Notes under the pieces: generated by a model
Told to the model about the DNA's origin: nothing
What the model saw: the letters and a program-made list of their open reading frames with translations, nothing else
The model's database searches: none
In this document: positions 3,651 to 29,085 of the stretch, in pieces
How positions within the stretch are numbered: position 1 is the stretch's first letter
How the letters are laid out: the number at the start of each line of letters is the position of its first letter
Made by a program: the position numbers and the translations under genes
Source: Chryseobacterium sp. ISL-80
GTDB taxonomy: Bacteria > Bacillota > Bacilli > Bacillales > Cytobacillaceae
Direction of reading: 5' to 3'
NCBI GenBank assembly: GCA_018613055.1
Contig: JAGGQZ010000004.1
Coordinates: 1-64,000, forward strand
Length of the DNA: 64,000 nucleotides

Positions 3651-4265
3651 TTATAAGGCTCGTTTTTCTAAATCCTTCGCTGTTTTGCTTGTTTCCACTT
3701 TCTTTTCGTCCCGGAAAGTTCCAAATAAGTAATCGGCAAAAGGTGTGCTGACACCGTACCAGAAGTTTTCATTCTTAAAGTGATGGAGAATATGGACCTT
3801 TTTTACCCAACGTCCGAATCTGGTCTTTGGCTTGATCGGCCGGTGGGCAACATAATGCTTCCACTCATAGACCAGCAGCATCGCCATCAGCCCGGTTCCG
3901 AACGCAATAGTCCGACTCACGTTATGGGAAACTAGATAAAAAAGAAATGACAGGACCAAAAAGCCGGGCAAGCTATACCATAATGGCAGAAATAGCAGCT
4001 TGAGGTTATTCGGATCGGTGTGATGGTCATAGTGGATCCTTTTCATGAACCTTAGGAATAATGGGTTCTTCGGTGCTTTGATATGAAAGAAGAAGCGATG
4101 GGTAAAATATTCGCTAAAAGCGAATGTAATCATTCCTATGATGAAAAATAATACCATGTACCATGTCAGGCCTTTCCATATGGACATCCCGATGCCAGTA
4201 AATATTAAAACAATCAAGATACTAATATCGGGAAAAAACAAAAAGTCCTTATATAGCTTCTTCAT
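3651..4265 (-). CDS. Fatty acid hydroxylase superfamily protein
   Basis: An integral membrane protein of 204 residues with four or five hydrophobic segments and the histidine clusters of the fatty acid hydroxylase/sterol desaturase superfamily: HRFFFH (about 57-62), HYDHH (about 78-82), HYVAHRP (about 138-144) and HILHHF (about 159-164). These histidines bind a di-iron centre that oxidises lipids in characterised members. The substrate here is unknown; related Bacillus proteins are only annotated as sterol desaturase-like. The ATG is preceded by GGGGCGGTG. It has its own terminator and appears to be a single-gene unit. Confidence 0.85.
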   Translation of the reverse strand: MKKLYKDFLFFPDISILIVLIFTGIGMSIWKGLTWYMVLFFIIGMITFAFSEYFTHRFFFHIKAPKNPLFLRFMKRIHYDHHTDPNNLKLLFLPLWYSLPGFLVLSFLFYLVSHNVSRTIAFGTGLMAMLLVYEWKHYVAHRPIKPKTRFGRWVKKVHILHHFKNENFWYGVSTPFADYLFGTFRDEKKVETSKTAKDLEKRAL

Positions 4266-4336
4266 AACACCGCCCCTTTTTTACCGTTTAAACCATTATA
4301 ATATTATCTGATTATTCAATCAATATAAAAACAACC

Positions 4337-4360
4337 TGCGAATCACTCTCCGCAGGCGTC
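4337..4360 (-). terminator. Terminator after the DinB-like gene
   Basis: CCTGCG...CGCAGG hairpin just downstream of the stop codon, followed on the minus strand by TTGTTTTT. Confidence 0.7.
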
Positions 4361-4367
4361 AATCATG

Positions 4368-4907
4368 TTATTTAACTAGTTCTTTACTGTAAATTTTCTT
4401 GATCATTCTGATCTGGCCGCGGTGGTTGATTTCATCTTCAAACACATGAAACCATTTGAAGTAATTGTTGCCGGGCTGGTTCCACCACCAATTGGTCTGC
4501 TCAAACAACCATTCATCTGAAAGTGTCTGGAATTTATCATATGTTTCACTTCGGACAGTCTGGAGTTCTTCAAGATAATGCTCTAGCGGAAATCCTTTAA
4601 AAGCTGCTTTTCCTTTCTCGCCCAGTTCAAGTCCGGCAGATAAAGTTTGCTCTTCTTCTTTGGTAGGGTCACGCTTTTCAAAGGTAATAATTTGATAGAT
4701 ACGTTCGACGGCAGCCATGTGGCCAAGCAGCATGCCGATGGAATTTGCATCATCATGAATGAGGTAATCCAACTCCTCGATTGATAGCCCCTCAACTTCC
4801 TCCAGAGTGGTTTTCCGGGTGTAGTTCATCATCGACACCAAATGGCCGAGTGTAGGAGTGAATCCTTCTTTCTGATCAACCAGAAAAATCGTAGACATAT
4901 CAAACAA
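4368..4907 (-). CDS. DinB-like (DUF664) metal-binding protein
   Basis: A four-helix-bundle protein of 179 residues of the DinB/DUF664 superfamily. The candidate metal ligands are a histidine in GHMAAVE (about residue 68) and the HVFEDEINHRGQ segment near the C-terminus, where two histidines sit on one helix, the usual DinB pattern. Some relatives are thiol transferases (BstA/YfiT types), but most, including this one, have no assigned reaction. The start is a TTG at 4907, chosen because GGAGG lies 8 bases upstream; the ATG three codons in would be too far from it. Single-gene unit. Confidence 0.85.
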   Translation of the reverse strand: MFDMSTIFLVDQKEGFTPTLGHLVSMMNYTRKTTLEEVEGLSIEELDYLIHDDANSIGMLLGHMAAVERIYQIITFEKRDPTKEEEQTLSAGLELGEKGKAAFKGFPLEHYLEELQTVRSETYDKFQTLSDEWLFEQTNWWWNQPGNNYFKWFHVFEDEINHRGQIRMIKKIYSKELVK

Positions 4908-23331: not shown

Positions 23332-23404
23332 TGATTCCTACTGGGTTCGAACCAGCGACCTCTACCCTGTCAAGGTAGCGCTCTCCCAGCTGAGCTAAGG
23401 AATC
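23332..23404 (-). tRNA. tRNA-Val (anticodon GAC)
   Basis: The minus strand folds as a standard 73-nt tRNA. The acceptor stem is GATTCCT/AGGAATC with discriminator A. The D arm is GCTC...GAGC. The anticodon stem CTACC/GGTAG holds loop TTGACAG with anticodon GAC (reads GUC/GUU, valine). The T arm is CTGG-TTCGAAC-CCAG. The 3' CCA is not encoded. It stands alone with its own terminator. Confidence 0.95.
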
Positions 23405-23495: not shown

Positions 23496-24113
23496 TTATG
23501 AATTTCTTATACTTTGGATGATCCTATTAATATACTCATCTTCATGAGGTACAAAATCCTTTTTGGAGACCAGCATCTCTTTTGGTTTCTTTTCGCCTTC
23601 CTCACTTACCATGAAACCTTTGAGCCTTATTTCATTGGATTTGGCAAACCATAGATCTTCAAAATCGGTCATGCTTGCCACCATGATCCCTGAGACCTCA
23701 TCCTTTTGAAGCTGGAATTTTTCAATAGGCTGATGTTTCTTGTACAAGAAAACATGGCATAGCTCTCGGTCAATGAATTCTGGGCTGATTAGTGAATCTT
23801 TGATGGTACCTAAAGATTGTAAATCTTCAACAGTCACGTCGATTCCGAGTTCTTCCTTTACTTCCCTCAAGCCATCAAGAGGAGTTTCATGCGCCAGAAT
23901 ATGCCCTGCTGCGGTGATATCCAGCAAACCGGAATAATCCTTCTTGGCGGAACTCCGAACTTGAAAATAAAGAAAGTCCTCCCCGTTTATCCGCTCTGTA
24001 AACCAGCAATGGAATGTCTCATGCCAGTGGCCAGCTTTATGGACATCGGACCTCGGTGCTGTTCCCAGGCAAGTCCCATGTTGATCAAAAATTCTAAGCA
24101 TTTCACTCTCCAT
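23496..24113 (-). CDS. Nudix hydrolase, IPP-isomerase-like
   Basis: A cytoplasmic Nudix protein of 205 residues. The Nudix box runs from GHILAHETP to LREVKEELGI (about residues 69-90) with the REVxEELG core that binds magnesium. The start (RIFDQHGTCLGTAPRSDVHKAG) and the WHETFHCWF segment resemble the Nudix group near isopentenyl-diphosphate isomerase, typical of several uncharacterised Bacillus enzymes. The substrate is unknown. The ATG lies 8 bases after GGAGG. It is divergent from the LexA-box gene, and LexA box 1 lies only about 55 bases upstream of its start codon, so shared SOS control is possible. Confidence 0.88.
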   Translation of the reverse strand: MESEMLRIFDQHGTCLGTAPRSDVHKAGHWHETFHCWFTERINGEDFLYFQVRSSAKKDYSGLLDITAAGHILAHETPLDGLREVKEELGIDVTVEDLQSLGTIKDSLISPEFIDRELCHVFLYKKHQPIEKFQLQKDEVSGIMVASMTDFEDLWFAKSNEIRLKGFMVSEEGEKKPKEMLVSKKDFVPHEDEYINRIIQSIRNS

Positions 24114-24166: not shown

Positions 24167-24217
24167 CGAACAAACGTTCCAAAAAAATTGAATAGAGAAC
24201 AAATGTTCGGGTATAAT
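24167..24217 (+). promoter_or_regulatory. Two LexA (SOS) boxes with overlapping sigma-A promoter
   Basis: Box 1, CGAACAAACGTTCC (24167-24180), and box 2, GAACAAATGTTCG (24197-24209), both fit the Bacillus LexA/DinR consensus CGAAC-N4-GTTCG with one or no mismatch. Box 2 lies between a TTGAAT -35 (24188-24193) and a perfect TATAAT -10 (24212-24217), spacing 18, which is the right place for repression. The gene downstream starts at 24249. Confidence 0.85.
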
Positions 24218-24248
24218 ATAATTATTAAAAGATAAGGAGTGAATACAC

Positions 24249-24470
24249 ATGAATTTTCTTTTGGAAAAATCACTAAAAGAAAACCAGCCTGTTGAAATGA
24301 TTTATTTTGCAGTCGATAACCAGATCACACAGCGAAGGATCATTGTAAAAGAGATCAGGGGGAATTACTTTAAAGCATTTTGTTTTCTTAGAAACGAGGA
24401 ACGTTTATTCAAGGTTGAAAACATCCTATCCATCATGCCAGAAAAACGGCACTTCCTTAAAATCAGTTAA
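24249..24470 (+). CDS. Small WYL-like protein under SOS control
   Basis: A protein of 73 residues resembling an isolated WYL-type module: EMIYFAVDNQITQRRIIVKEI, a KAFCFLRNEERLFKVENIL segment and short ends. WYL modules often bind nucleotides or nucleic acid and regulate damage or phage-defence responses; here the DNA-binding domain is missing. The promoter carries two LexA boxes, one inside the spacer, so it should be induced by DNA damage. Ribosome site AAGGAGTG 7 bases before the ATG. Function not established. Confidence 0.8.
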   Translation: MNFLLEKSLKENQPVEMIYFAVDNQITQRRIIVKEIRGNYFKAFCFLRNEERLFKVENILSIMPEKRHFLKIS

Positions 24471-28359: not shown

Positions 28360-29085
28360 ATGGATTTTCCAATGGGCAAAATTGAAGAAATCACACTCCA
28401 AAGCAAGGAGCTGGGCGAAGAAATAACGATGCTGGTATACCTGCCTGCCAATTATTCCCCATTGTATAAATACTCCTTGCTGATCGCACAGGATGGACGC
28501 GATTATTTCCAATTGGGGCGGATAGGCAGGGTTGCGGATGAATTCCTTGCAAAAAAAGAAATTGAAAACGTCATCATCGTTGGAATCCCATATGATTCTG
28601 TCGAAGACCGACGCCAAAAATACCATCCGAAAGGAGAGCAGCACCAAGCCTATATTCGCTTTTTGGCCCATGAGCTTGTCCCTTATCTCGATGAACGCTA
28701 TCCAACCTACCAAATGGGGATGGGACGCGCTTTGGTCGGTGATTCGCTTGCAGCAACCGTTTCACTGCTTGCAGCTATCCAGTATCCTCATACTTTTGGA
28801 AAAGTTCTGCTTCAATCACCTTATGTGAATGAGGAAGTATTTTCGGCGGTTAAGAACTTCAATCAACCTGAGTTGCTGAATATATACCACAGTGTCGGCG
28901 AACAGGAGACAGTTGTTAAGACGACATCATCCAAAAACAAAGATTTCCTTACACCAAACAGGGAGCTTTCAAAGATGTTCAAGGAAAAAAGCTTTGGCTA
29001 TTTTTATGAAGAATTTAGTGGAGACCATACATGGACTCATTGGCAGCCCAACCTTAAGCGGGCAATGAAAAGAATGTTTTCCTAA
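28360..29085 (+). CDS. yjcH: Esterase-family alpha/beta hydrolase YjcH
   Basis: A cytoplasmic alpha/beta hydrolase of 241 residues of the enterochelin-esterase (Esterase D) type. The nucleophile is Ser in VGDSLAATVSL (about residue 128, G-x-S-x-A-like); the late His is in SGDHTWTHW. The early DGRDYFQLGRI segment is typical. The natural substrate is unknown. ATG after TTGGAGGTAAATAA. It starts the yjcH-yjcG-yjcF run, in the order found (reversed) in B. subtilis. Confidence 0.9.
   Translation: MDFPMGKIEEITLQSKELGEEITMLVYLPANYSPLYKYSLLIAQDGRDYFQLGRIGRVADEFLAKKEIENVIIVGIPYDSVEDRRQKYHPKGEQHQAYIRFLAHELVPYLDERYPTYQMGMGRALVGDSLAATVSLLAAIQYPHTFGKVLLQSPYVNEEVFSAVKNFNQPELLNIYHSVGEQETVVKTTSSKNKDFLTPNRELSKMFKEKSFGYFYEEFSGDHTWTHWQPNLKRAMKRMFS

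Follow-up and report, generated by a model that had tools for sequence, protein, structure and literature searches.

What does a WYL domain do when it is encoded on its own, behind what look like LexA boxes? The question is raised by one locus in a 64-kb window (the whole stretch of 64,000 nucleotides analysed here) from a Mesobacillus-like genome of 4.75 Mb, whose nearest named matches are mostly Mesobacillus. A preliminary description had noted two near-consensus LexA boxes, one of them within the -35/-10 spacer of a promoter, upstream of a 73-residue WYL-like gene, and had called the gene a strong SOS candidate, possibly a sensor or inhibitor at work during DNA damage. Boxes, promoter and reading frame are all present as described (Table 1), and the predicted fold of the product is that of a WYL domain.

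A lone WYL gene and its LexA boxes

The two boxes are the only sites in the window with at most one mismatch to CGAAC-N4-GTTCG, and two boxes no more than 100 bp apart appeared in none of 20 simulations under a first-order Markov model of the window. Across the whole genome, GAACNNNNGTTCGNNTATAAT has an exact match at the window WYL site only, and the same is true of the combination GAAC-N4-GTTCG-NN-TATAAT. The genome also encodes lexA, with matching boxes at its divergent promoter.

Table 1. Features of the window locus and of LexA-type partner genes at related loci
Feature	Position	Strand	Remarks
tRNA-Val (gac)	23332-23404	minus	adjoins NUDIX gene
NUDIX hydrolase gene	23496-24113		divergent from WYL gene
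Distal LexA box CGAACaaacGTTCc	24167-24180		1 mismatch to CGAAC-N4-GTTCG
Promoter TTGAAT-18-TATAAT	24188-24217		
-35 TTGAAT	24188-24193	+	from sequence
Proximal LexA box aGAACaaatGTTCG	24196-24209		within promoter spacer; 1 mismatch to CGAAC-N4-GTTCG
-10 TATAAT	24212-24217	+	18-nt spacer; from sequence
Ribosome binding site AAGGAG	24234-24239	+	read from sequence
ORF of 73-aa stand-alone WYL-domain protein	24249-24470	+	
LexA DNA-binding-domain-only ORFs right after WYL (phages and plasmids)	L111 ~4219-4425; L105 4213-4416; L108 4221-4436; L126 ~4221-4433		

Protein searches found homologues of the 73-aa protein in 79 of 101 relatives, leaving about a fifth without the gene. A family profile matched 166 of 299 Bacilli genomes, representing 72 of 118 genera, and had few matches outside the class; a narrower contig profile scan returned 12 named loci, mostly from Mesobacillus, Robertmurraya and other Bacillaceae. 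Viral contigs searched with the window protein itself yielded no relatives, and no SPbeta match appeared among the phages of the collection. The profile of PHROG 6785, which the window protein matches at E 5e-14, also gave a match in B. subtilis 168, reported without coordinates. This PHROG is an existing bin for the phage copies, annotated as of unknown function and carrying no description of SOS control or operon structure.

The box travels with the gene. We scored LexA-like boxes with at most two mismatches within 120 bp upstream of 105 sampled homologues, at loci that are related to one another and whose counts are not independent. Such a box preceded 96 of the 105, compared with 64 of 2473 background windows (2.6%) from these loci; when no more than one mismatch was allowed, the figures were 75 of 105 and 6 of 2473 (0.24%). 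A search for the gene plus its boxes in relatives, which the preliminary description had proposed as a check, thus found both kept: 54 of the 96 homologues have two boxes, usually with starts 29-31 bp apart. A TATAAT-like element follows the box in 85 of the 105. The association holds down to ~30% protein identity and in further families of Bacilli, and no LexA box was seen at two homologues outside the class (L176 and L177).

Within the genus, the WYL gene has a pN/pS of 0.14-0.33 and is under purifying selection. In loci from several families it adjoins a TRAP transporter gene or an esterase gene (28360-29085 in the window), and because this placement is kept across families, the locus is an old chromosomal one rather than a recent arrival. 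The lone WYL family is widely conserved in Bacilli and has been overlooked. Membership of the gene in the LexA regulon is well supported by the promoter-overlapping box kept in orthologues, and on the same sequence evidence we consider LexA binding and induction very likely. The strong SOS candidacy first claimed for the gene is, in this sense, upheld by conservation.

At the window locus, the start of the NUDIX gene lies ~54 bp from the distal box, so co-regulation of this neighbour could occur within the genus. A conserved WYL-NUDIX partnership was rejected because the adjacency was found in the genus only.

Fold and predicted ssDNA-binding residues

The window protein scores 18.7 bits against Pfam WYL (PF13280), under the 21.8 cut-off, and has no NCBIfam model. 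Among 53 aligned homologues, however, 46 match Pfam WYL at E<=0.1, the best at 2.6e-8. A 2019 survey of WYL proteins took domain scores above 27 (PMC6789036); since Pfam WYL gives only low scores to the window protein and to several of its relatives, such members would have been missed. AlphaFold2, run with the 53 homologues, predicts a helix and five strands forming an Sm/SH3 barrel (pLDDT 92). The best structural matches by Foldseek and VIA are the WYL domains of PafBC, CapW, BrxR and DriD (Foldseek E 1.4e-4 to PafBC; VIA Z 10.2, rmsd 1.7 over 67 residues), while Hfq and Sm proteins reach Z 8-9. From this model we are confident that the protein is an Sm-like SH3 barrel of the WYL type.

PafBC, DriD, BrxR and CapW share with it the Sm-type WYL fold and the groove arginines, but they carry an N-terminal helix-turn-helix (HTH) and further C-terminal domains. 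The 73-aa chain consists of WYL alone, with both HTH and WCX absent, and we therefore rejected its identity as an HTH-WYL(-WCX) regulator of the PafBC, DriD or BrxR kind. PafBC and DriD bind ssDNA and act in a DNA-damage response that is independent of LexA.

YolD/YqjX (PF08863) resembles the lone WYL protein in other ways, being LexA-controlled, a proposed partner of UvrX/YqjW, predicted to be Sm-like, and a recurrent neighbour of the WYL gene. Makarova et al. 2014 placed YolD in the WYL superfamily (PMC4012209), and Timinskas and Venclovas 2019 treated it as a UmuD counterpart (PMC6511836); the available passages of these two papers contain no mention of a lone WYL protein. Unlike the window protein, YolD is longer and has a DRG-KW-MMLPEH N-terminal arm. 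We rejected YolD identity because this arm is absent from the window protein, PF08863 gives no match, and the profile comparison is not significant (against an alignment of five YolD sequences, hhalign gives a probability of 0.8%). No description of a stand-alone SOS WYL protein was found in the literature searched, which included a minority of subscription papers.

The conserved residues speak for ssDNA binding. Y19, R29, C45 and R52 are invariant in the 53 sequences, R48 and F54 are near-invariant (the R48 position is R or K in 52 of 53), and the K55 position is basic in 60%. A groove lined by conserved basic residues together with a cysteine is described as a feature of the WYL superfamily (PMC4012209), and this feature is present in the lone WYL family as R29, C45, R48, R52 and K55. 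Among solved entries, the closest sequences are the WYL domains at the C-terminus of Pif1 helicases from thermophiles, namely Deferribacter (DdPif1, 8bnv, E 3.8e-10) and Sulfurihydrogenibium (SsPif1, 8bns), with TePif1 also alike and the same arginine pattern modelled on ssDNA. In DdPif1, residues R464, R491, R495, R498 and R501 were placed on ssDNA in a model, the crystallised Pif1 cores having been truncated before the WYL domain (PMC9964779). Counted along the HMMER alignment, these five residues correspond to R29, R48, R52, K55 and N58. In Pif1 the WYL domain is fused to the helicase, whereas the window WYL is a free protein, putatively under LexA control.

The DdPif1 spacing R-4-R-3-R-3-R equals that of PafB R204, R208, R211 and R214. 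In PafB, the variants R181A, R211A/R214A, R181A/R204A/R208A and Y196A lose ssDNA binding (PMC11804915). Judged by spacing, PafB R181 and Y196 would correspond to R29 and Y40, and the window protein has Asn at the R214 equivalent. Because three invariant or near-invariant arginines are kept and a fourth position is mostly basic, we infer from these residues that the lone WYL protein probably binds ssDNA.

Neighbours in phages and chromosomes

In five related prophage contigs (L113-L117), the WYL stop overlaps the UvrX start by four bases, and in two of them (L116 and L117) YolD follows UvrX. Psychrobacillus phage PVJ1 has the order WYL, LexA-type HTH DNA-binding domain, UvrX, YolD. WYL is followed by YolD in Mimir87, L124, L048, L052, L061, L071, L157 and L159, and in L066, L077, L081, L126 and L129 YolD lies on the other side of the boxes, divergent from WYL. 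At one chromosomal locus (L072, 1206-3811), WYL is followed by an unknown ORF of 127 aa and then a Y-family polymerase, and an SRAP gene (of the ssDNA abasic-site protein family) lies divergent from this cluster. In L112, L118 and L119 the place of the 127-aa ORF after WYL is taken by a 113-aa ORF, and a Pfam search with the L112 copy found nothing.

Because YolD occurs in 99 of 101 relatives, a test of co-occurrence by presence and absence has no power. The number of YolD genes in most relatives is one to three, and YolD lies within about 1 kb of WYL at 9 of some 83 relative loci, which would be roughly a hundredfold over chance by a rough estimate that ignores relatedness. Adjacency to UvrX or YolD occurs in prophages and in a minority of chromosomes. 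At the window locus there is neither a UvrX/YolD nor an HTH neighbour, and the gene stands alone, as in most sampled chromosomes.

A further kind of partner appears in mobile-element and some chromosomal copies, where the WYL gene overlaps an HTH gene of 67-85 aa. Two of the three partners examined match LexA_DNA_bind at E ~1e-20, and these proteins are LexA-type winged helices without the protease domain. Similar WYL-HTH pairs occur in L065, L073, L075, L126-L130, L175 and L181. In the L111 partner the recognition helix, SSSTVHGHL, is the one found in the window-genome LexA, and this partner might occupy LexA boxes without being cleavable. In L158 (G167 contig C7, 1270-1710, minus strand), WYL and a LexA-type DNA-binding domain are joined in one 146-aa ORF that matches both Pfam domains, WYL below its cut-off; the order is WYL then HTH, the reverse of the usual HTH-WYL regulators.

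Proposed role and its rivals

We propose that the WYL protein is repressed by LexA, binds ssDNA and assists in translesion or gap repair, a reading to which we give an even chance overall. A minimal Sm-like WYL module would be kept silent by LexA and released upon DNA damage. LexA bound in the spacer would block RNA polymerase, probably with help from another dimer some three helical turns further upstream, and RecA-triggered cleavage of LexA would free the promoter. The protein would then probably use its groove (R29, R48, R52, K55 and the aromatic Y40) to bind ssDNA where forks stall or gaps are left, and would serve there as a damage-tolerance accessory, most likely modulating or recruiting a translesion polymerase of the UvrX/YqjW type, which acts together with YolD. 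A role beside such a polymerase, to which neighbourhood is the one guide and for which the window locus offers no such neighbour, is possible yet falls somewhat short of probable. Against the proposal as a whole count the solitary position of the gene in the window and in most sampled chromosomes, its absence from about a fifth of relatives, the Asn at the PafB R214 equivalent, and the ability of WYL domains to engage proteins or ligands of other kinds; in B. subtilis, even YqjX, the homologue of YolD, shows little phenotype in mutagenesis (PMC13335488).

The main rival sees a transcription regulator split in two, with the WYL protein as the half that senses the ligand. It would pair with a separate LexA-type winged-helix protein or with LexA, sense ssDNA and tune transcription at LexA boxes; a brake or a phage switch would be examples. 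The overlapping HTH genes with their LexA_DNA_bind matches, the fusion in L158 and the host-type helix of the L111 partner all fit this idea. However, lexA is the sole LexA_DNA_bind match in the window genome and most chromosomal copies lack an HTH neighbour, and we regard a split regulator as unlikely. The Z scores of Hfq and Sm proteins on the model would also suit an SOS-induced, Hfq-like RNA binder working on transcripts rather than DNA; yet the sequence profile and the best Z favour WYL domains, several of which have been shown to bind ssDNA, and the informative neighbours are DNA-repair genes, making this reading improbable.

We think it highly improbable that the protein belongs to an anti-phage system as a WYL accessory kept ready during DNA damage. 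The PADLOC RTasWYL-YodC profile does match through its WYL part (E 3.8e-7), but no defence genes were seen beside the WYL gene in the window, synteny with the TRAP transporter and esterase extends across families, and phages themselves carry the gene. Least credible is a passenger role, with the boxes there for the sake of the divergent NUDIX gene: the distal box is close to the NUDIX start and the NUDIX-WYL pair is kept in the genus, but throughout the class the box remains with the WYL gene.

The accessory role in translesion or gap repair can be taken a step further, if only tentatively and with considerable doubt. The WYL module may be the missing ssDNA-binding part of a Gram-positive Pol V-like system, bringing UvrX/YqjW-YolD to ssDNA gaps, or it may sense ssDNA and set SOS output together with LexA-type DNA-binding proteins. 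Recent work in B. subtilis (2026) called the question of a Gram-positive Pol V-type mutasome, and of the accessory factors that would steer it, open (PMC13335488), and a conserved LexA-controlled candidate for ssDNA binding within overlapping UvrX/YolD operons of phages makes the question of a mutasome accessory testable. If the proposal is true, ssDNA sensing by WYL domains, known from the LexA-independent PafBC and DriD responses, would also be a part of the LexA regulon.

Elsewhere, the window genome has a UvrX-YolD operon with a box near it (L088), and this separate location also counts against the proposed role. It also has a second YolD gene without an adjacent UvrX (L089, 1489-1836, contig C23), before which a perfect LexA box, CGAACAAACGTTCG, lies at position 1868.
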